Positions 38-11,559 of a stretch of 44,196 nt of DNA are shown here, piece after piece. The position numbers and the translations under genes were made by a program. Every line of letters begins with the position of its first letter. Position 1 is the first letter of the stretch. Under the pieces are notes generated by a model that ran no database searches, was not told where the DNA came from, and worked only from the letters and a program-made list of their open reading frames with translations. The DNA comes from a bacterium (GTDB taxonomy: Bacteria; Zhuqueibacterota; QNDG01; DTFT01), in the NCBI GenBank assembly GCA_016933415.1, contig JAFGAX010000091.1, positions 1 to 44,196 on the forward strand. The letters run 5' to 3'.

Positions 38-886
38 CTAAATGTTCAGCAGCGGAAATTCCGAATACAGATTATCCACATCCCCCGGAGCGAGATCCAT
101 CGAGCGGAACAGCCTCGGCCGCTTCAACGCCAGCCGGAAGGAAACCGGAATCCGCTCCCCCTTCAGCATCCTCTCATCCGCGTACAGGGACGTGACGCCC
201 AGGCGCAGGCACAGTTTCGCGACCGCGCGTCCGGAGCACCGGCTGAACACCTCCGGATTGCCGATGTGGTGCACAGCGCCGAGCAGAAACGGCTTTTTCC
301 TCCGGACCATGCGGCTGATCACGCAGAAACACCGGCCGCCGCCGGATGTGATGAGAAAGGCGCGGCATCCGGGAAACCGGTGGTCGTCCCGGAGCCTGCG
401 CTCGTCCGGAGTCAGAATGTCATGCTCCACTTCATCCGCTTCGATCACCATGCAGGCGGGCCCTGAGGGAAAGCGGGGCATGAGCACGGACGTGCCGGTT
501 TCCAGTTCACGGAATCCGGCTTTCAGGAGCAGTCCGGACACTTCGGCGGAAGGCGTGAGATCCACGATGTCCGTTCCCGGTTCTTTCAGCAGGGGCAGGA
601 GCATGAACACACTCCGGCCCCGGTACGGTTCCCGCACGATCCAGCTGGTCAGGTTGCACATCCGGCGCTCCCTTCCGGCCAGAACGCGGCGGCTGACCAA
701 AGCGCCCAGGAATCCCACGGGGCTCTCACCGTCCAGCATCAGGGTGCCGCAGGAGGGCTCTCCGGAACCGAACGGATCCGAGAAAAGCCTGCGCCACCCT
801 TCAAGGCCGACATAGGGGTTCCGGAATTCCCGCAGGAGCGGGAGCACGGCCTCGAAATCGCCGGGCACTGCCTGCCGGACGGTCAC
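38..886 (-). CDS. GNAT-family N-acyltransferase-like protein
   Basis: N-terminal VRQAVPGDFEAVLPLLREF and IVREPYRGRS resemble a GNAT fold. GTG at 886 overlaps the upstream stop (GTGA); the ORF track's start at 889 is a TTG. Confidence 0.65.
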   Translation of the reverse strand: MTVRQAVPGDFEAVLPLLREFRNPYVGLEGWRRLFSDPFGSGEPSCGTLMLDGESPVGFLGALVSRRVLAGRERRMCNLTSWIVREPYRGRSVFMLLPLLKEPGTDIVDLTPSAEVSGLLLKAGFRELETGTSVLMPRFPSGPACMVIEADEVEHDILTPDERRLRDDHRFPGCRAFLITSGGGRCFCVISRMVRRKKPFLLGAVHHIGNPEVFSRCSGRAVAKLCLRLGVTSLYADERMLKGERIPVSFRLALKRPRLFRSMDLAPGDVDNLYSEFPLLNI

Positions 887-2172
887 CAATCCGCGGCTCC
901 GGATTCCGGCAGACGGCTCAGGCGCCGCACCGCCCCGTCCGGATCCGCGGCGTATTCATCCGGCCGCGGGTGGGACAGGAACAGGAGCGGGCTGGCCGAG
1001 TACGCGTACGCTCCTGAGTCGTATATGCCTATCCAGTCGCCGATTTCCGGTTTCGCGAGCCGGATGCGGTCTCCCATGACGTCGATGGACGTGCAGAGCG
1101 GTCCGACGGCCGTCACTTCAACCGTCTCCGCGCCGGCCGGCCTGGACAGGTTGGCCGCCCTGAAATTTTTCCGTATGACCTGCCCGAAATTGCCGCTGGC
1201 CGCGAGGTGATGGTTCATTCCGCCCTCGAGCACGGCGTAGTCGCGGCCGCGGGAGGACTTGACGTCCACGACGCGGGCGGCGTACAGGCCGGCTTGCGCC
1301 GTGAGCCAGCGGCCGAGTTCGAGAACCGCGACCGGCGCATCCGCGGGGTTGAGTTCCTTTTTCAGGCCGGCCCATTCCGCGTTCAACGCCGCGCATGCGG
1401 ATGCGGCGTCGAGTTCCGTCTGACCCTCATGATAGGGAACGCCGAATCCGCCGCCGAAATTCACCAGGCGCAGGAGCGGGGTCTTCCCTCCGGCCAGGGT
1501 CCCGCGGACGATGTCCGCGGTTTGTCTGAAATTCGCGGCCAGCGCCTCCGCGTCCAGGCACTGGGTGCCCGCGTACACGTGAATCCCCCTCGGCCGGACA
1601 TGGGGCATGCGGCCGAACAGGTCCAGCATTTCCGGCAGACGCTCCTCGTCCGTGCCGAAGGCGGAGGATTTGCCGCCCATCTTGATCGCGAACGCACGGA
1701 TCAGCAGTGAGGGATTGACGCGCACCGACGCGTCCGCAATCCTGTGTTCCGCAAAAGCGGCTGCCTCGAGCCTGTCGAGCTCGTTCGGCGATTCGACGCT
1801 GATCGCGCCGATGCCGGCCCGGACCGCGAAGCGCAGCTCGGCGTCCGTCTTGCCCGGGCCCGCGAAATGGATGCGCTCGGGGCTGAACCCGGCTTTCAGG
1901 GCGGCCGCCAGCTCGCCCCCGGAGGAAACATCCGCGCCGTCGGTCCAGGCGGCCATGGCGCGGAGCAGATCCGGGTTCGGATTGGCCTTGACCGCGTAAT
2001 AGACGAGGATGGAGGGATCGAGCCAATTCCGGAGCCGCTCCGCGCGCTCCCGGATCAGGCCCAGGTCGTACAGATAGAAGGGCCTTTCCGCGGAAGCGAG
2101 CAGCCCGGCGAAGGCTTCCGTCTCCCAGAACGGGATCCGGTCCGACGCCGGTTCAGGATTTCCGTTTTGCAT
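883..2172 (-). CDS. Fold-type III PLP-dependent decarboxylase (DAP/ornithine decarboxylase-like; resembles exosortase-A-associated decarboxylases)
   Basis: YYAVKANPNP (PLP lysine), HVYAGTQCLDAEAL, NFGGGFGVPY, ELGRWLTAQAGLY, GPLCTSIDVMGDRI, DSGAYAYSAS. Confidence 0.88.
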   Translation of the reverse strand: MQNGNPEPASDRIPFWETEAFAGLLASAERPFYLYDLGLIRERAERLRNWLDPSILVYYAVKANPNPDLLRAMAAWTDGADVSSGGELAAALKAGFSPERIHFAGPGKTDAELRFAVRAGIGAISVESPNELDRLEAAAFAEHRIADASVRVNPSLLIRAFAIKMGGKSSAFGTDEERLPEMLDLFGRMPHVRPRGIHVYAGTQCLDAEALAANFRQTADIVRGTLAGGKTPLLRLVNFGGGFGVPYHEGQTELDAASACAALNAEWAGLKKELNPADAPVAVLELGRWLTAQAGLYAARVVDVKSSRGRDYAVLEGGMNHHLAASGNFGQVIRKNFRAANLSRPAGAETVEVTAVGPLCTSIDVMGDRIRLAKPEIGDWIGIYDSGAYAYSASPLLFLSHPRPDEYAADPDGAVRRLSRLPESGAADW

Positions 2173-3778
2173 CCGAATGCTCCCTGACGGTCCGTGTGCG
2201 GTCGATCTTCCCGTTCGCGGTCAGCGGAAAGGCGGACAGCACGACCACATCGTCCGGCACCAGGTAGAAGGGGAAATTCCTTTTGCAGTCGCCGATCACG
2301 GTTTCAGCCGTCACGGCCGGCGAGGACAGGGTCATGAAAACGCGGAGCCTGATTTCGTCCTCCTCCTCGTATGCCGCGGCCACGCATTCCGCCACGCCCG
2401 GTATGGCCGTGACGCGCTCCTCCACCTCGGTCGGGCTGACGCGGTATCCCTTGGTCTTGATCATGGCGTCGCGCCGGCCCACGTAATACAGAAAACCCTC
2501 GGCGTCGCGCTTCACGATGTCGCCCGAGAAGACCACGGTTTCCAGGTGCCGGTTGGACGGATCGAGCAGGGGATTCGGCCTGAACACTTCGGCCGTCTTT
2601 TCCGGGTTGTTCCAGTATCCGCGGGTGATGAGGGCTCCGCGGTGCACGAGTTCGCCCTCTTCGTCCGGGCCGCATTCGCGTCCCTCGCCGTCCACCACGA
2701 AAATCTCGACCCCGGGGATCGCCTTTCCGATTGATTCGGGCCTGCGGCCGATCTCTTCCGGGTCCAGAAAGGTAGAGCGAAACGCCTCCGTGAGGCCGTA
2801 CATGAGGAAGATCCGGGTCGAGGGAAAAAGGCCGCGCAGTTTGCCGACCACGGCGACCGGCACCTTGCCGCCTGAATTCGTGATCACCCGGAGGCCGGAG
2901 AAATCGTGCGGCTTCGACGTGTCGCAGAGCCTGGGATTGAAGATCTTGAGCCACACGGGCGGCATGCCGGCAAATACCGTGATGCGCTTCGACTCGAGCG
3001 TGCGGAGCAGGTCGTTCGGCATGAAAAACTGATGCAGGACGAATGTGCCGCCGAGCAGGACCGCGTCCATGAGCTGGTTGAACCCGTAGTCGAAGTTGAG
3101 GGGAAGCAGGCCGAGAATCCGGTCGTCGCCGGACAGGCCTGTGTACGCGCTCACGATTTTCGCGCCGTCAATGGAATTGCGGTGCGTCACCACGATGCCC
3201 TTGGGCAGTCCGGTGGAGCCTGAGGTGTAGATGATGTGCGAAATATCGTCCGCGATCCGCCTCGGCTCCGCGGCCGCGGCCGGCGCGGTTTCGGGCCTGC
3301 AGATGCGTTTGAAGGCCGATCCGGAGTCCGAATCCGGAGAACCGGGGTTCTTCGTCCCTCCGCCGAAGGTCACCGCGCCCGTGATTCCCGCCTCCGCCCA
3401 GCGGGCAGGCGCGATGCGGTCCCGGCCGCGGCCGTCCGGCGTCAGCTTGTCGGCCGTGGCGGCCAGGGTCCGGATGCCGCAGTCCTTGACGATGTGGAGC
3501 ACCTGGTCCTCGGCCAGAATGGGATTGAGGAGCACCACGACTCCGCCCGCCATCCACACCCCGAACATGGCCAGCACCTGATCGATGGTCTTGTCCATGT
3601 AAATGCCCGCGGGCGCGCCGGGCTCCAGCCCGGCCTGGATGAGCGCGGCCGCCGTGCGCCTCGACGCTGTGACCGCTGCCGCATAAGACAGGGTCCGCCC
3701 GGGTTCCTCGAGGCAGGGCTTGTCCGGAAAGCGGCTGGCGCTGTCCTCCAGGAGATGATGGCTCAGCCAGGGTCTCAT
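2153..3778 (-). CDS. AMP-forming acyl/aminoacyl-CoA (or -ACP) ligase
   Basis: HIIYTSGSTGLPKGIVVTHRN, YVGRRDAMIKTKGYRVSPTEVEE, LTANGKIDR. ATGA overlap with the ACP gene. Confidence 0.92.
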   Translation of the reverse strand: MRPWLSHHLLEDSASRFPDKPCLEEPGRTLSYAAAVTASRRTAAALIQAGLEPGAPAGIYMDKTIDQVLAMFGVWMAGGVVVLLNPILAEDQVLHIVKDCGIRTLAATADKLTPDGRGRDRIAPARWAEAGITGAVTFGGGTKNPGSPDSDSGSAFKRICRPETAPAAAAEPRRIADDISHIIYTSGSTGLPKGIVVTHRNSIDGAKIVSAYTGLSGDDRILGLLPLNFDYGFNQLMDAVLLGGTFVLHQFFMPNDLLRTLESKRITVFAGMPPVWLKIFNPRLCDTSKPHDFSGLRVITNSGGKVPVAVVGKLRGLFPSTRIFLMYGLTEAFRSTFLDPEEIGRRPESIGKAIPGVEIFVVDGEGRECGPDEEGELVHRGALITRGYWNNPEKTAEVFRPNPLLDPSNRHLETVVFSGDIVKRDAEGFLYYVGRRDAMIKTKGYRVSPTEVEERVTAIPGVAECVAAAYEEEDEIRLRVFMTLSSPAVTAETVIGDCKRNFPFYLVPDDVVVLSAFPLTANGKIDRTRTVREHSDAKRKS

Positions 3779-4026
3779 CCATCCGTCCGCATGTTCCGGA
3801 GCACCAGGTCTGCCACGGATTGAATCGTGGAAAACTGGGCTTCGGTGACGTCTTCAATGGCAATGACCGCCCCGAACCGGGTCTCCAGAAATGTCAGAAA
3901 TTCGACCACTCCGAACGAATCCAGCGCGCCCTTGTCGAACAGGTTGTCCGATTCCGAGGGCTCGAATCCGACGGTTGTTTTAAAATGACCGCGTAATTCC
4001 TGTTTGATTTCGTCGATATTCGGCAT
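3775..4026 (-). CDS. Acyl carrier protein-like protein
   Basis: 83 aa with a GALDSFGVVEFL phosphopantetheine site; directly precedes and overlaps the ligase. Confidence 0.88.
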   Translation of the reverse strand: MPNIDEIKQELRGHFKTTVGFEPSESDNLFDKGALDSFGVVEFLTFLETRFGAVIAIEDVTEAQFSTIQSVADLVLRNMRTDG

Positions 4027-4090: not shown

Positions 4091-4126
4091 ATTGAAAATA
4101 TAGCAAATTCTTCACTTTTTTCCAAT
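4091..4126 (-). promoter_or_regulatory. Candidate regulatory motif upstream of the ACP gene
   Basis: Plus strand ATTGAAAATATAGCAAATTCTTCACTTTTTTCC closely resembles ATTGAAAATACGGCAAAAAATCAAGTTTTTTATTCC upstream of the ybgF-like gene. Both lie upstream of minus-strand genes. Confidence 0.3.
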
Positions 4127-5614
4127 CCGAAAAAGCTTTCCCGCCTTCCCGGCCAGGCTTTTCCGGAACCATTCCAGCTCGTTCCTGTGGAAAAGTCCGA
4201 ACGCCGTGATCAGAACGGCGTACAGGGGAAGCAGTACCGCGCATTGAACCACAGGATGGGCCCCGTTCATCAGCCAGTAAACAGGGGCCATCAAAGTCAA
4301 TGCAGCAAAAGGTTTGCCGAGTACGGCGAGCTGGGAACGAACGACGAATCCGGCCTTTTCGAGAATCCTCCAGTAAAGACACACGATGAAAACATCCGTC
4401 GCCGCGGTGGCCGCGGCCGCGCCGATGATGCCGTAACGCCGGATGAGGATGATATTGACCGCAATGTTGAAAACGCTCCTGGCCGCGGACGCGGCGATCT
4501 CACGCGTCTGCAGGTTCACCGCGATCAGGGTGTTTCCGAACAGGTAGCGGAGATAGGCCGGAACCACGGCCAGGCCGAGCACCGCGAGCGCAACGCCGCC
4601 CTCCCTGTATTCCGGGCCGAACCACCCCATCACGGTTCCGGCCATCAGCACTGTTCCCAGGGCCACGGCGAACGCCGCGGCCGTCAGGTACCGTATCGCC
4701 CGGCCGAGCAGAGTCCGGACCAGGTCCTTGGACACGAGAGTACGGCCCGCGATTTCCGGATAAGTCGCCTCGGTGAGCACGTTCGGCACCAGCCAGAGAC
4801 TTTCCAGTATTTTCCGCGCGACGCCGTAAACGCCGGCCGGTCCGAACCCGACGGTCAGCAGGGAGACCAGCACGGTGTCGATGTAGTCGTACACGCGCCA
4901 GAGCGCGGACTGGGCCACGTATATCCACGATTCCGAGAGCAGGGAAGCCGATACGTTCACGCTCGGCCGGCTGTATCCGCCCGGGCAGAGACGCCTGACC
5001 GCGAAGAACAGCCAGACGAAACTGATCAGGCGTGAGGCCGCGAAAATCCAGGCCGCGGCGAAAACGCCCCGGCCCCCGATCAGCAGGCCGCCGCCGATCA
5101 CGAGCAGGACCACGCGCTCCGCGTTCATGGCCACGGTGTCGTGGTGGAATCCGCCCAGCGCCTTGACCGCGGCGCGGAGCGTCAACGTCCAGCTCTTGAG
5201 CGATTCGGCCGCGAACACCACGAGCAGGAGCAGGCGGAACGGGAGCGTGTACTTTTCGCGGAACACCAGTGCCGCTCCGTAGCACAGCCCCAGCGTGAGG
5301 ACCGTGAGCCCCGCCTGGAGCCAGAGCGCGTTGGAAACGTAAATGCCCGCATCCCGCGGCCGCCGGACAATGACCTTGGTGATCGAGTACGAAAAGCCGA
5401 ACAGAATCAGCATCGCGAACAGGCCGGTGAAGCCCATCGCGGTGTTGAACTGTCCCCAGACATCCTTGCCGAGCCGGTTGGCCGCGAGAAAAAAGAAGGC
5501 GGCCGTGAACAGCATGCTCAGTTCCGAGAAGGCGCTGAACACGGTGTTCCAGACGATGCGCCGCGGCGGGGAAACCCGTCCCTCGGTGCCGGCGTCGCTC
5601 ACGCGTCCCTCCAT
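4112..5614 (-). CDS. Polysaccharide flippase / oligosaccharide translocase (Wzx-like)
   Basis: 500 aa multi-TM protein; N-terminal NTVFSAFSELSMLFTAAFFFLAANRLGKDVWGQFNTAMGFTGLFAMLILFGF is typical of Wzx/RfbX. Confidence 0.85.
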   Translation of the reverse strand: MEGRVSDAGTEGRVSPPRRIVWNTVFSAFSELSMLFTAAFFFLAANRLGKDVWGQFNTAMGFTGLFAMLILFGFSYSITKVIVRRPRDAGIYVSNALWLQAGLTVLTLGLCYGAALVFREKYTLPFRLLLLVVFAAESLKSWTLTLRAAVKALGGFHHDTVAMNAERVVLLVIGGGLLIGGRGVFAAAWIFAASRLISFVWLFFAVRRLCPGGYSRPSVNVSASLLSESWIYVAQSALWRVYDYIDTVLVSLLTVGFGPAGVYGVARKILESLWLVPNVLTEATYPEIAGRTLVSKDLVRTLLGRAIRYLTAAAFAVALGTVLMAGTVMGWFGPEYREGGVALAVLGLAVVPAYLRYLFGNTLIAVNLQTREIAASAARSVFNIAVNIILIRRYGIIGAAAATAATDVFIVCLYWRILEKAGFVVRSQLAVLGKPFAALTLMAPVYWLMNGAHPVVQCAVLLPLYAVLITAFGLFHRNELEWFRKSLAGKAGKLFRIGKK

Positions 5615-6759
5615 GCGTTCTCCAGCAGGGACTCGAAGTCGCGGGCCATGCGTTCGACCGGGAAACGTTCGAACGCGGACCTGCGGCCGGCCGCGGAAAG
5701 CCGCAAGGCGAGGGGTTTATCCCGGAGCATGCGGATCAGCGCGGCCGCGAGGCGGCCCGCATCGGACGGGGGGAAGAGAAGTCCGTTCTCTCCATCGCGG
5801 ATGATTTCGGGTATGCCGCCCACCGCGGGCGCGGCCACGGGCACGGCCGCGGCCATCATCTCGATGAGCGCGATGCCGTGCGTTTCGATGTGCGAGCAGA
5901 GCAGGCCCGCGTCCAGAAGCGGAATCAGGTTCCGCACATCGCTGCGGTATCCTAGAAAGCGCACCACGGACGAGATCCCGAGCGATTCCGCCAGGCGCAT
6001 GAGTTCGGACTTGAGCGGTCCCTCTCCGATGAGGAGGAAACGCGCATGCGGCACCGCCTTCAGGACAACGGGAGCCGCCTCGAGCAGAAGCCTGTGGTTT
6101 TTCACGGGAACCAGGTTGGCGGTGATGCCGACCAGTCTGTCCTTTGGGCCGAAGCCGAGGCTTGCGGCCAACCCGGGCTTCGGACGGACGGTCCGGAACC
6201 GCGACAGATCGATGCCGTTGGGAATCACATCGATCAGGCCGGGCCTTACGCCGAGGCCGCGGACAATGATCCCCTTCAGAAAAGCGGAGGGAACCACGAT
6301 GCGGTCCGTGTCTTTCAGAAGCAGACGGTCCGCGGGCCTGAGCGGCCCGGGATAAAGGCCCTCGATCACCGTGTCCTGGGCGCGGATCACGGTCGGCACG
6401 CCCGCCAGCCGGGCCGCGGCCGGGCCCGCGAACGTGCCGGGGCCGAGCGCGAAGTAGAGCATGACATCCGGCCGCATGCGGCGGAGCGCCGAGGCCGAGC
6501 GCGCGATTGCGGGGAGGTCGAAACGGCCCCGCATGGGAATTTCAACGGTTTCGATTTCCGGCCATTGAAAAAAGGCCCGCTGTCGGATGCGGACGGCTTC
6601 GTCCGTGCGGCGGGCCTTGTAACCCGGGTAGAGGAGGATGACGGACGGCCGGACGCGCCTGCGGTCCAGGTGCCGCATCAGGTGATCCAGCTTGGTCTCG
6701 AATCCCCCGATGTCGTGGCACGCGACCAGAAAGGCGGCCCGGACCGGCCTGCGGCTCAC
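5599..6759 (-). CDS. Glycosyltransferase family 4-like protein
   Basis: GLGVRPGLIDVIPNGIDLSRF, LLIGEGPLKSEL, IALIEMMAAAVPVAAPAVGGIPEII. GTG start forms a GTGA overlap with the upstream gene. Confidence 0.9.
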   Translation of the reverse strand: MSRRPVRAAFLVACHDIGGFETKLDHLMRHLDRRRVRPSVILLYPGYKARRTDEAVRIRQRAFFQWPEIETVEIPMRGRFDLPAIARSASALRRMRPDVMLYFALGPGTFAGPAAARLAGVPTVIRAQDTVIEGLYPGPLRPADRLLLKDTDRIVVPSAFLKGIIVRGLGVRPGLIDVIPNGIDLSRFRTVRPKPGLAASLGFGPKDRLVGITANLVPVKNHRLLLEAAPVVLKAVPHARFLLIGEGPLKSELMRLAESLGISSVVRFLGYRSDVRNLIPLLDAGLLCSHIETHGIALIEMMAAAVPVAAPAVGGIPEIIRDGENGLLFPPSDAGRLAAALIRMLRDKPLALRLSAAGRRSAFERFPVERMARDFESLLENAWRDA

Positions 6760-8744
6760 GGAACCCCGCCCGGAAACAGCCGGGACATGGCTTCATCGAG
6801 CCGGCCGAGCCGGTTTTCCCAGAGAAACTCTTTCTTCAGCGCCTCGAAATCCGCGCCGTCCACGGGCCTGTTCTCCTTCAGGATTCGGACGATCGCTTCA
6901 GGGAATTCCCCTATCGGGCACACCGTCAGCCTGGAGAAGACGCGCGGCACAGCACGGGCGCCGGTTTCCGTGGCCACGACCGGCTTGCCGCAGGCCAGGG
7001 ATTCGACGACCTTGGTCGGCATGCCCCAGCCGCCGGTCATGGGCGAAATCACGACATCCGCCCGCCGGATCAGGTCTGCCACGGATTCCACGAATCCGGT
7101 GAATTCAAAAGCCGGATGGCTGAGCTCAAGCGGTGGATGCGCGCCCGCGAATTGAAAGCGGACGCGGGGATTTGCCTTCAAAACCCGGTCCGCGATACGG
7201 TCGCGCACGGCGGCCACAGCCTCGCGGTTCGTGGAAATCGCGTAATTGCCGAAGAACAGCACGATTTTCGGGTCATTCTTCTCCGGCTTGTACCGTGGAT
7301 TGAGGACCTTTTCGTCAAAGCCCTGCGGCACGACCGTGATCTTGTCCGGCGCGGTCCACCGGCCGTAGAATGCCGCGTCATCGTCCGATATCGCGACGAG
7401 CAGGCGGCATTGCTTCACGGCCTTTTTCTCCGCGGACCGGACCAGGGGCACGAGCGGCCAGCGCCTGGGGTCGGACTTCGCCTTGCCGAGATACTGCCGG
7501 AACTCGATGTTGTGCGACGCGTACACGAAAGGCACGCCGAAGCGCTTCGAGAGTTTCACCCCGTATTTGCCGGCCAGGCCGTAATCACAGAAGATCAGGT
7601 CGTAGCGGTTCTTTTCGAGAAGACGGGCCGCCGCATGATAAAGCGGTTTGCTGAAGAGGAAATACCCCTTCTGTGAAAAGGGGATCGCGATTTTTTCCCC
7701 GACCCCTTTCAGCCGGTTCCCGTACTTTTCCTCCAGAACCGGATCGCCGGGATGTCCCGACCCGGTCATATACACCAGGTCCAGACTGTGCCGACGGGCG
7801 AGAAAATTGACGAACTCGCCGCCGCGCGCGCCCGCGCCCGTGTAGGGCACGGCCGGGTCGTACATGGAGAGATAGAGGATTCTTTTGGATTGCGGGGACC
7901 ACAGGTCTCCGGGTTGTCCCGTCCGTCTCCCGGATGCCGCGTTGGCGTGCGGCGACAGAGCCGCCGCTTTCTGCTTCGCGGCCCTCTCTTCCCTCCCGGT
8001 GGAGGGCCCCGGCTTCCGTTTCCGTACCGTTTTGGCGGGCACGCCCGCGGCCACCGCGTAATCGGCCACGTCGCGATTAACCACCGAGCCCGCGCCGATC
8101 ACCGCGTGCCTGCCCACGGACACACCGTCAAACACCGTGACATGGCTGCCGATCCACCCGCCGGGCCCGATGCGTATGCCCTTGGACTCGCGGCCCTGGT
8201 TGAGCACCGGCACCGCGGGGTCGTCGAACCGGTGTGTGCCGCCGACCAGGTACACATAGGCTGCCAGCAGTTCCTCCGCGCCCACGACCACTTCACTCGC
8301 GCTGAAAATCGTGCAGTTCGACCCGATATTGGCGCGGTCCTCCAGGACGATGTCGCCGTTCTTGCAGTTGAGTATCGTGTTCCGGCCGAGAAAAACGCCG
8401 GCCCCGATCCGGATGCCATTGTTGTCCTGGCCCTTTGCGTCGAGCACGCATCCGTCGTCGATCACCGCGCCGTCGCCGATTTCGATCTTTTGGGGATGCC
8501 TCAGCACCACGCCCCTTCCGAACGTCAGCCCGCGGCCTGTACGGCCGAGAAGTTTCGGGTAGAGTTTGGAGCGAAGCAACAGCCCGGCTGCTCCCGGCAT
8601 GGAGCCGCAAAACGCAGTGATGCACTCATACCGGATCAGCTTCAGCAGGCTCCGCTCGCCCAGGATGAGATCCTGGTATTTCGCGAGCTTGCCCCCGCCT
8701 GAGGCGAATTCCTTCTGGATTTCAATGGTTTCGGTTTTGGCCAT
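6756..8744 (-). CDS. Two-domain fusion: N-terminal hexapeptide-repeat (LbH) acyltransferase and C-terminal GT4 glycosyltransferase
   Basis: N-terminal hexapeptide repeats (IGDGAVIDDGCVLDAKG, IGAGVFLGRNTIL, IGPGGWIGSHVTVFDGVSVGRHAVIGAGSVV, AGVPAKTVRKRK), then RILYLSMYDPAVPYTGAGARGGEFVNFLA and VVISPMTGGWGMPTKVVESLACGKPVVATETGA in one 662-codon frame. Confidence 0.87.
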   Translation of the reverse strand: MAKTETIEIQKEFASGGGKLAKYQDLILGERSLLKLIRYECITAFCGSMPGAAGLLLRSKLYPKLLGRTGRGLTFGRGVVLRHPQKIEIGDGAVIDDGCVLDAKGQDNNGIRIGAGVFLGRNTILNCKNGDIVLEDRANIGSNCTIFSASEVVVGAEELLAAYVYLVGGTHRFDDPAVPVLNQGRESKGIRIGPGGWIGSHVTVFDGVSVGRHAVIGAGSVVNRDVADYAVAAGVPAKTVRKRKPGPSTGREERAAKQKAAALSPHANAASGRRTGQPGDLWSPQSKRILYLSMYDPAVPYTGAGARGGEFVNFLARRHSLDLVYMTGSGHPGDPVLEEKYGNRLKGVGEKIAIPFSQKGYFLFSKPLYHAAARLLEKNRYDLIFCDYGLAGKYGVKLSKRFGVPFVYASHNIEFRQYLGKAKSDPRRWPLVPLVRSAEKKAVKQCRLLVAISDDDAAFYGRWTAPDKITVVPQGFDEKVLNPRYKPEKNDPKIVLFFGNYAISTNREAVAAVRDRIADRVLKANPRVRFQFAGAHPPLELSHPAFEFTGFVESVADLIRRADVVISPMTGGWGMPTKVVESLACGKPVVATETGARAVPRVFSRLTVCPIGEFPEAIVRILKENRPVDGADFEALKKEFLWENRLGRLDEAMSRLFPGGVP

Positions 8745-8896: not shown

Positions 8897-9871
8897 CTAC
8901 AGCAGCCCCTGCTCTTTATACCAAGCCGCCGTCCGCCCAAGCCCCTCGGCAAGGTCGATTTTCGGATCGTACCCGAGGACCCTGCGGGCCCTGGCGATGT
9001 CGAACGCGCGGTCCTTGACGAAAAAGTCCACGCGCCTGCGGTAAATCGGCGGTGAAATGCGGAGGGGACGGCAGACCGACTCGCAAATCGCTCCGGCCGC
9101 CAGAAACGGCCAGACCGGGATGCGGATCCGGGACGGCTTTGTATCCAGAACGGCCGCGATGGCTGCGTACAGCTCGTTGAGCGTCGTATACCGCGGCCCG
9201 GCCAGAGTGAAGATCTGGCCCTCGATGCCGGGCGTTTCGCCGACCAGACGGATGCCCTCGACGAGATCGTCGATATAGGTCAGATGGTAAAGGACGTTCC
9301 CGGATCCGATCATGGGCTTGCGGACATTCCGAAATAACTTTAAAAAGCGCGTATCGCCCGGGCCGTAAATACCCACAGGCCGGAATACGGCGATGGGCGC
9401 TCCTTTTTCTTTATAATAGCGGAGGGCCAGCATCTCGCCCTCCATCTTGGATTCCTGGTAATGGTCGCCCGGCCGGTACGGCGCTTCCTCGGTTGCGGGC
9501 GGATTCTCGATATCGCCCTGCACGCCGACCGTGCTGCAGTGCACGAAGCGCTTCACACCGGCCTTCATCGAAGCCTCGATGAGGTTCCGCGTGCCGCCGA
9601 CATTGACGTCGAAAAACAGCCGCCTCGGCACGTTCTCCTCGCGGTACACGGCCGCGATGTGGTACACGGTTTCAACGTCGCGGACCGCTGCGTCCAGGGT
9701 CTCCGGCTGGGTCAGGTCGCCGATGACCGGCTCGATGCCGGCCTGGACCAGCGCACCGGTGTCGCTTTCAGGAAGCGCCAGGGTCCGCACCCGAAGGCCG
9801 CGACCGGCCAGATACCGGCACAAATGTCCCCCCGTGTAACCGGCGCCGCCGGTGACCAGAACAGCGCTCAT
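8897..9871 (-). CDS. NAD(P)-dependent epimerase/dehydratase (extended SDR; HpnA/dihydroflavonol-reductase-like)
   Basis: MSAVLVTGGAGYTGGHLCRYLAGRG Rossmann motif, YQESKMEGE (YxxxK). ATG at 9871 overlaps the upstream stop (ATGA), so the longer start at 9946 is unlikely. Confidence 0.88.
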   Translation of the reverse strand: MSAVLVTGGAGYTGGHLCRYLAGRGLRVRTLALPESDTGALVQAGIEPVIGDLTQPETLDAAVRDVETVYHIAAVYREENVPRRLFFDVNVGGTRNLIEASMKAGVKRFVHCSTVGVQGDIENPPATEEAPYRPGDHYQESKMEGEMLALRYYKEKGAPIAVFRPVGIYGPGDTRFLKLFRNVRKPMIGSGNVLYHLTYIDDLVEGIRLVGETPGIEGQIFTLAGPRYTTLNELYAAIAAVLDTKPSRIRIPVWPFLAAGAICESVCRPLRISPPIYRRRVDFFVKDRAFDIARARRVLGYDPKIDLAEGLGRTAAWYKEQGLL

Positions 9872-11559
9872 GCGACGTTCTCCCGAACCGGCATGTACGC
9901 GGCCTCCGCGTCCCGGATCTCGTTTTTCAGCCTGGTCTCGTCCCATCCGAGTTCCGCGGCCATGAGCCTGCCGCAGGCCTCCAGCGCCTCCGCGCCCGGA
10001 TGCTTCGCCGACCCCAGGCCCGTGCGCCGCCGCACCGCATCGGACAGCCGCACCGCGGCCTCCTCGCGCACCGCGTGCACGATCTGCCCGCCGATCACTT
10101 CAACGGAACCGGGCAGTGTTTTTCCGAGCTCCGGACGGCCTTCGATGAGTTTCAGCACCGCCGGGTAATCCGTGCCGTACTGCGACAGCAGGTGGTTCAG
10201 TACGGCCGGCGCAAGCCCGAACGGAGCGCTAGTCCTGACATTCTCCGCGAACGATTCAAACCGCCGGATGTCCCCGCCGTGCAGGGGCGTATTCCGCGAA
10301 ACGGACCGCCCGACCGGCGCACGCAGTCTCTTCACCAGGAGCTTCACGATCCGTTCCGCCACGTCCCGTGCCGTGGTGTATTTGACGCCGACCACGGACA
10401 CGATGCCCTCCACGCCGTTCTCCACGGAATGGTCGTGAATGCGGTAATGCGGCGTCAGACGCACCTCGCCCGTTTTCGGGTTCAGGCCCTCCATGGGCAG
10501 GAATCCCTTGTGAAAGAAGGACACGTCCTCGCGCCGGAACGCGGCGCCCGGAACCGCGCGGCTGATTTCCGAGAGAGCCGATTCAATGTCCGATTCGGTG
10601 ACCGCCATGGCCTCCGGATCGCCCGTGTAGGGCTTGTGAAAAGTGCCGGCCAGAGTGACGCCCTGCCAGGGCGCGACGAACAGGACGCGGCTGCCCTTGT
10701 ATTCGCTGCCGTCCGCCCGCCGGTGTGAGAAACGGCTGCTGACGCCCGCGGCGCATCCCGGGAGCAGTCCGCGGTTCAGGACCAGATTCATCGCCGTGGA
10801 CAGCCGGATCATTTTATTCCGGATGCCCGGGACGGCCCTGGCCAGCACCGGGTCCGCGAATCCGCCCGAGGCGTTCAGAACCATGCGCGACCGCACTTCG
10901 AATTCCGCGCCCGTAAGCGCGTCCCTGACCACGGCGCCCGCGATACGATTCTTCAAACGCAGAAAATCAACAGCCTCAACGTAATTCGCGCACACCGCGC
11001 CGGCCCGATCGGCGGACTGGATGAAGGCGAGCAGGAGCCGCTCGGAATTGACCATCTGGGCGTCGGACCAGTAGGCGCCGCCCGTGACCCGGCCGCCGTC
11101 GATGCCCGGCACCAGGCCGATGCAGGTTTCCCTGGACACGACCCGGCCCCGCGGGATGCGGTGCTCCGGGTCCAGCCCGCGGTTCCGGTCGAAGCTCAGA
11201 ATGTCGTTCGCAATCATGCCGAACCGCATGACCCACTTGCTTTTCATGAGCATGCCGTAGGTCGGCATCACGCAGCACATGGGCCGCACGAGATGCGGCG
11301 CAACGGACAGCAGGATGCGCCTTTCCCGAACCGACTCGCGCACGCGGGGCAGGTCGAGCGTCTGCAGGTAACGCAGGCCGCCGTGCACGATCTTGAGGCT
11401 GTTGGCCGAGGTCAGCCCGCCGAAATCCGCCTTCTCGACGAGGGCCGTGCGGAGCCCGCGCGAAGCGGCCTCCCACGCGGCCGTGGCGCCGTAAATGCCG
11501 CCGCCGATGATTAAAACGTCGAACTCGGTGTTTTGGAGTTTCTGGAGGTCTCTTTTCAT
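9868..11559 (-). CDS. FAD-dependent glycerol-3-phosphate dehydrogenase-like protein
   Basis: FDVLIIGGGIYGATAAWEAASRGLRTALVEKADFGGLTSANSLKIVHGGLRYL, GVKYTTARDVAERIVK; GlpD/GlpA-like over 563 aa. Confidence 0.88.
   Translation of the reverse strand: MKRDLQKLQNTEFDVLIIGGGIYGATAAWEAASRGLRTALVEKADFGGLTSANSLKIVHGGLRYLQTLDLPRVRESVRERRILLSVAPHLVRPMCCVMPTYGMLMKSKWVMRFGMIANDILSFDRNRGLDPEHRIPRGRVVSRETCIGLVPGIDGGRVTGGAYWSDAQMVNSERLLLAFIQSADRAGAVCANYVEAVDFLRLKNRIAGAVVRDALTGAEFEVRSRMVLNASGGFADPVLARAVPGIRNKMIRLSTAMNLVLNRGLLPGCAAGVSSRFSHRRADGSEYKGSRVLFVAPWQGVTLAGTFHKPYTGDPEAMAVTESDIESALSEISRAVPGAAFRREDVSFFHKGFLPMEGLNPKTGEVRLTPHYRIHDHSVENGVEGIVSVVGVKYTTARDVAERIVKLLVKRLRAPVGRSVSRNTPLHGGDIRRFESFAENVRTSAPFGLAPAVLNHLLSQYGTDYPAVLKLIEGRPELGKTLPGSVEVIGGQIVHAVREEAAVRLSDAVRRRTGLGSAKHPGAEALEACGRLMAAELGWDETRLKNEIRDAEAAYMPVRENVA

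Follow-up and report, generated by a model that had tools for sequence, protein, structure and literature searches.

A candidate route from aspartate to β-alanyl carrier protein encoded in a bacterial exopolysaccharide operon

Introduction

Aspartate can be turned into β-alanine while it is held on a carrier protein. In Burkholderia, AfcQ activates L-Asp via its β-carboxyl group and loads it onto AfcK, where AfcP decarboxylates it to β-alanine, iteratively, as observed in vitro (PMC12186527). The same route has been proposed for bolagladin, where β-alanine fails to rescue a bolN deletion (PMC7756342), and in vicenistatin biosynthesis VinN, VinL and VinO perform the same chemistry with 3-methyl-Asp, the preferred substrate of VinN (PMC11284099). 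Here we describe four genes for an acyl carrier protein (ACP), an AMP-ligase, a fold-III pyridoxal phosphate (PLP) decarboxylase and a GNAT protein, located at the end of an operon for extracellular polysaccharide (EPS). They lie in a window of 44,196 nucleotides, contig JAFGAX010000091.1 (C61) of a metagenome-assembled genome (MAG) of 2.7 Mb from the Zhuqueibacterota that is 76% complete (labelled G000). In our reading, to which we assign a probability of roughly two in three, the module constitutes a β-alanyl-ACP pathway from aspartate that serves EPS synthesis, with the GNAT protein passing β-alanine to an EPS component.

The module matches each of the described systems in part. Like AfcQ/AfcK/AfcP, it combines a VinN-type ligase with a conserved Asp/Arg pocket, a stand-alone ACP and a PLP decarboxylase, whereas the AFC-BC11 cluster of Burkholderia is dedicated to a lipopeptide, includes a fatty acyl-AMP ligase (FAAL), KAS III and citrate synthase, has no GNAT and shows other code residues in its ligase. 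With VinN/VinL/VinO it shares the stand-alone ACP and a ligase with the same three substrate contacts, in a system that loads β-carboxyl-activated (methyl)aspartate and decarboxylates it on the ACP; however, the Vin system feeds a polyketide synthase, needs a glutamate mutase, an aminoacyl cap and an acyltransferase, and its ligase core is ~28% identical to ours. BtrK of butirosin biosynthesis, the solved structure nearest to the window decarboxylase, acts on a carrier-bound amino acid as well, but its substrate is Glu on the ACP BtrI, and this carrier is loaded by an ATP-grasp enzyme rather than an AMP-ligase. D-alanylation by DltA/DltC likewise employs an amino-acid:carrier ligase and a carrier for the decoration of an envelope polymer; in contrast, the window has a decarboxylase and predicted β-carboxyl chemistry, scores below the DltA and DltC cut-offs, and shows no DltB or DltD beside the module.

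Finally, the same ligase-decarboxylase pair is described in EPS loci of XrtA/PEP-CTERM systems by the curated models TIGR03098 and TIGR03099, both of the type 'hypoth_equivalog', alongside the hydrolases TIGR03100 and TIGR03101. The window differs from this set in having a GNAT and no such hydrolases, in the lack of a detected exosortase and in scoring below both cut-offs. In the open-licence literature we found no paper that gives TIGR03098 or TIGR03099 a function or links them to β-alanyl-ACP chemistry; this link is one that we infer ourselves.

Results

The ligase (2153-3778, minus strand; 541 aa) passes PF00501 and PF13193, and a comparison of its core with all PDB chains places VinN on top (3wv4/3wvn). 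Counted along the VinN chain in the alignment, D230, S302 and R334 of the window protein correspond to Asp230, Ser299 and Arg331 of VinN, so that all three VinN-type contacts are present. They are retained in all 84 surveyed ligases that were aligned, with D, with S or T at position 299, and with R. Of the two scan patterns of our survey, one included the Asp motif and neither included the Ser or the Arg, so that the conservation of the Arg is not due to the selection of loci. Its equivalent has also been discussed for AfcQ (PMC12186527), and CmiS6, whose substrate is an alkyl β-amino acid without the carboxyl group in question, aligns with an Ala at the Arg331 position. A fatty acyl-CoA ligase, considered as a candidate, was rejected in view of VinN as the best core match together with D230 and R334. 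The case is thus strong for a VinN-type amino-acid:ACP adenylating enzyme, predicted to load the β-carboxyl of L-Asp or a close analogue. In this step, D230 would read the α-amino group and S302 and R334 the α-carboxylate, and the adenylated β-carboxyl would be transferred to the phosphopantetheine of the ACP. An AlphaFold model of the ligase, built from a four-sequence alignment, has a pLDDT of 54, which is too low to judge pocket geometry.

The decarboxylase (883-2172, minus strand; 429 aa) passes PF02784 and PF00278 and retains the PLP lysine K62 as well as C360, T361, D364 and Y389, with the C-x-x-x-D and GAY motifs intact. Its best match in the PDB is BtrK with 239.6 bits, 92 bits ahead of the best diaminopimelate (DAP) decarboxylase at 147.2 bits; the molecule name of BtrK there is L-glutamyl-[BtrI acyl-carrier protein] decarboxylase. 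Where DAP decarboxylases have the Glu of their CEx motif, all 75 relatives compared have a Thr (CTxxD), as does BtrK; the lysine that binds PLP and the motif residues Cys, Asp and Tyr are kept. The same Thr is found in 6knh, annotated as a probable DAP decarboxylase; the exchange argues against a true DAP decarboxylase and is on its own no proof of ACP dependence. General family annotations, and a score of 231 bits on the lysA model, would permit an ordinary DAP, lysine or ornithine decarboxylase that merely shares an operon with an unrelated acyl-CoA ligase. We consider this very improbable: the score lies below the lysA cut-off of 297.9, a congener of the window organism (genome G001) has a separate true LysA with 467 bits, and the CT motif, the proximity to BtrK and the repeated association of the ligase with a decarboxylase and an ACP described below all speak against it. 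On the first four of these points we reject an ordinary role in lysine synthesis. A LysA of this congener (locus L028, 6215-7819) has an open frame of ~100 aa before its decarboxylase domain, representing either an over-long start or an extra domain. For the window enzyme, the evidence is strong for a BtrK-like decarboxylase, predicted to strip the free α-carboxyl from carrier-bound isoaspartyl-S-ACP and so to yield β-alanyl-S-ACP. Repeated cycles, as for AfcQ, may possibly lead to oligo-β-alanine.

That the ligase might load an amino acid other than aspartate has to be weighed at this point. A ligase using Glu via its γ-carboxyl, or 3-methyl-Asp, would give rise to GABA or 3-aminoisobutyrate as the carrier-bound product, in keeping with the glutamyl-S-BtrI substrate in the name of BtrK and the preference of VinN. 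The ten-residue code reads DYNGTSMRSK in the window, DFYITSMRI- in VinN and DASGATMRSK in Sinorhizobium meliloti and both Burkholderia ligases; D, T, S, M and R are common to the first two. Against this, AfcQ is of the VinN type with the conserved Arg and uses L-Asp, and no glutamate mutase gene was noticed beside the module, although no search was aimed at one. We regard another amino acid as unlikely, while giving it real weight; the precedents of the Vin, Bol and Afc systems lead to the specific prediction that L-Asp is activated at its β-carboxyl and that the product is β-alanyl-ACP.

The carrier protein (3775-4026, minus strand; 83 aa) matches PF00550 with 27.0 bits at a cut-off of 20.8 and carries the 4'-phosphopantetheine serine in LDSFG; the closest NCBIfam models are those of the AmcB and DltC carrier proteins, both below cut-off. 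The GNAT protein (38-889, minus strand; 283 aa from TTG at 889, or 282 aa from GTG at 886) has no Pfam or NCBIfam match of its own. However, its orthologues in loci L036 and L042 pass PF00583, and its AlphaFold model (pLDDT 89.5) displays a tandem GNAT fold, for which Foldseek finds tandem-GNAT structures at E 1e-10; the best PDB matches are 3n7z, 2ozg, Eis proteins and an N-myristoyltransferase. Its CoA pyrophosphate loop is degenerate, reading YRGRSVF (R90-G-R-S-V-F) where Q/R-x-x-G-x-G/A is canonical, as is the case in nearly all aligned homologues; only the one in L042 (A-I-A) is near the small-residue pattern. Such a loop fits a donor other than acetyl-CoA, short of proving it, and with moderate confidence we predict that the protein takes the aminoacyl group from the ACP. 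It would then attach β-alanine to an EPS precursor, at a hydroxyl or an amino group, ahead of export by Wzx.

Alternatively, the GNAT might acetylate, and thereby cap, the ACP-bound β-alanine, leaving it to another enzyme to move the N-acetyl-β-alanyl group to a sugar. Macrolactam pathways as a rule cap the amine of a β-aminoacyl-ACP (PMC11284099). A possible second acyltransferase is encoded at 6756-8744 (minus strand), a fusion of 662 aa of a hexapeptide (LbH) acyltransferase, WcaF-like with 77 bits, and a GT4 glycosyltransferase, whose homologue in the syntenic operon of locus L023 has 593 aa and is 64% identical over 243 aa. The degenerate loop speaks against acetyl transfer and, with the hexapeptide acyltransferase traced in the window and in L023 only, we find a capping role rather improbable.

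The four minus-strand reading frames overlap end to end, in the transcription order ACP, ligase, decarboxylase, GNAT. Read directly from the sequence, the junctions are an ATGA at 3775-3778 between ACP and ligase, a 20-bp overlap at 2153-2172 between ligase and decarboxylase, and a GTGA at 883-886 between decarboxylase and GNAT. Upstream, a Wzx-like flippase gene (4112-5614, minus strand; PF01943, 54.7 bits) ends 85 bp before the ACP start, and a Wzx gene also neighbours the module in L023, L035 and L036. It is preceded on the same strand by genes for GT4, the hexapeptide/GT fusion, AsnB, UGDH, a WcaJ-type initiating transferase, GalE, Wzc and Wza. The preliminary description of this DNA had proposed these four genes with their overlaps, the DSFG site of the ACP, the PLP lysine and C/D/Y motifs of the decarboxylase, a GNAT as the fourth product and a position at the end of an EPS operon; all of these proposals proved accurate. 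The contig ends 38 bases beyond the GNAT stop. In the congener (L022, identical to L035) the next gene encodes an FG-GAP/dockerin protein, and the module therefore probably ends with the GNAT gene. The whole set is present in the congener with 88-94% identity and is syntenic with EPS genes in L023, which belongs to another family of the same order; because of this retention we take the set to be more than a chance arrangement. Synteny with L023 (there at 3-1511) extends to a further gene within the EPS operon, for an FAD oxidoreductase resembling glycerol-3-phosphate dehydrogenase (9868-11559, minus strand).

How widespread is this arrangement? A pattern scan of genome contigs returned at least 80 loci; adding those taken from relatives and plasmids, we examined 87. 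In 74 of them, ligase and decarboxylase are no more than 2 kb apart. An ACP was detected by script in 51, including 21 of 21 loci with hydrolases and 12 of 14 with a GNAT; the remaining two of the latter also have an ACP when inspected by eye (L117 by its annotation, L106 within an over-long reading frame), bringing the GNAT-type loci to 14 of 14. They occur in Pseudomonadota (a Rhodocyclaceae MAG, Aminobacter with a weak match, S. meliloti and Aureimonas), in Desulfosarcina of the Thermodesulfobacteriota, in Micromonospora, Actinoplanes, Nocardioides and Nakamurella of the Actinomycetota, and in the window's own phylum, with gene orders that include ACP-ligase-decarboxylase-GNAT, GNAT-ACP-ligase-decarboxylase and GNAT-ligase-decarboxylase-ACP. 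On the ligase tree, the association with GNAT requires at least four changes (starred branches). Conversely, a profile of the GNAT found three full matches in 82 genomes of the window's phylum, all in the module, and one partial match beside an ACP-like reading frame; in 297 Actinomycetota it found three, two adjoining the ligase (one of them in the seed genome) and one adjoining an ACP and hydrolases 1 and 2. Co-occurrence of the four genes had been set beforehand as a test of the proposed module, and they do recur together in unrelated genomes.

Three loci deviate from the common layout. In an actinobacterial contig (L126, 3331-6504) the order ACP, hydrolase 2, hydrolase 1, GNAT, ACP combines both settings; a strict division into GNAT or hydrolases, which showed no overlap in the 87 loci, is therefore a tendency and not a rule. 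In L048 (10795-12110) the decarboxylase adjoining the ligase is split into two reading frames by a frameshift or an assembly error. A divergent ligase of Streptomyces sp. CB03234 (L068, 9956-11551) has no nearby decarboxylase on the same strand and a decarboxylase homologue on the opposite one, and is possibly part of a natural-product cluster.

In Burkholderia, relatives of the window ligase are encoded in the afc cluster and in bol-like clusters. These Burkholderia ligases fall inside the family, close to rhizobial and actinobacterial GNAT-type rows of the tree. One Burkholderia locus (L118, B. arboris) encodes, in this order, a carrier, two open reading frames, a ferritin-like/AurF (desaturase-like) protein, KAS III, a decarboxylase that is divergent (27% identity), the ligase and citrate synthase; by gene content and order, rather than by comparison with the deposited sequence, it fits the afc cluster. 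Since those relatives whose biochemistry is known serve lipopeptide and macrolactam synthesis, the product of the window set might itself be a small molecule or a lipid of the N-acyl-β-alanyl type, encoded beside EPS genes by chance. We see only a small chance of this: no KAS III, FAAL or nonribosomal peptide synthetase genes lie beside the window set, and both the window and L023 sets lie in EPS operons. The S. meliloti and Aureimonas loci, too, lie among polysaccharide genes, for glycosyltransferases, deacetylases, an O-antigen ligase or a flippase. On S. meliloti pSymB (L116; CP140883.1, 6955-10986) the set is annotated as hypothetical protein (the GNAT), ligase, decarboxylase and phosphopantetheine-binding protein; its neighbours are glycosyltransferases and a polysaccharide deacetylase, and genes bear the name 'exosortase A system-associated', with no exosortase annotated in the 17-kb stretch shown.

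This label was compared with the distribution of the exosortase itself. PF09721 has no match in the window MAG, in the congener G001 or in G009, which, given the incompleteness of the MAG, is no proof of absence. In ten GNAT-type genomes reached via their loci, one being the congener again, it has none in eight, one clear match and one fragment, whereas 12 of 13 hydrolase-type genomes tested have it; it is not found in G047 and G048, which also carry hydrolases. Thus, there are two main settings for the ligase-decarboxylase pair, and the one represented by the window does not bear out the name 'exosortase A-associated'.

Discussion

What can be said in favour of the earlier interpretation, and what against our own? 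The preliminary description had envisaged an amino-acid:ACP ligase, a decarboxylase related to the ACP-dependent BtrK, butirosin as the precedent, and relatives that are accessory to exosortase-A EPS loci. The enzyme types and their co-occurrence stand: VinN is the best PDB match of the ligase with its substrate contacts kept, and BtrK, not LysA, is nearest to the decarboxylase among solved structures. As precedents, VinN/VinL/VinO, BolO/BolC/BolN and AfcQ/AfcK/AfcP are closer than butirosin. Relationship to the TIGR03098/TIGR03099 pair is retained as well; the exosortase role is not, neither MAG nor congener having yielded an exosortase and both TIGR models scoring below cut-off.

Several points weigh against a β-alanyl-ACP pathway for EPS. 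While TIGR03098 is the best NCBIfam model of the window ligase, its 572.3 bits are below the cut-off of 592.35, as are the 424.2 bits of the decarboxylase on TIGR03099, with a cut-off of 478.45. For comparison, L036 exceeds the former (613.7) and falls below the latter (465.8), and L116 (740.0 bits on TIGR03098) and the Burkholderia locus L115 (700.1 on TIGR03098, 559 on TIGR03099) pass both. Identity between the window ligase and those of Burkholderia is only 36-38%, and 4 of 10 code positions differ, which would also allow Glu, 3-methyl-Asp or yet another substrate; the aspartate chemistry of the window's clade is a prediction from sequence. The donor and the acceptor of the GNAT are likewise predictions, and no report of β-alanine on an EPS or O-antigen was found in the open-licence literature. 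A phosphopantetheinyl transferase (PF01648) was not found in the MAG, in which the window ACP is the only match to PF00550; as a fatty-acid ACP is to be expected, both observations most likely reflect gaps in the assembly.

In the module, a biosynthetic logic known from other pathways would appear in a new context. Beyond the window, we tentatively envisage, at somewhat less than even odds, a widespread system that β-alanylates bacterial EPS, perhaps with oligo-β-alanine, adding cationic amines via the GNAT, the TIGR03098/TIGR03099 pair performing the same chemistry but with a different transfer step, hydrolases 1 and 2 taking over from the GNAT. The ligase-decarboxylase pair bears its 'exosortase A system-associated' label in very many genomes, and the link to β-alanyl-ACP enzymes provides it with a predicted substrate, regiochemistry and product that are testable with four small proteins. 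With the set present on its pSymB, S. meliloti offers a tractable model for such tests. If the transfer step is true, it would constitute a new route to amine groups on extracellular polysaccharides, affecting their charge, adhesion and biofilm properties.

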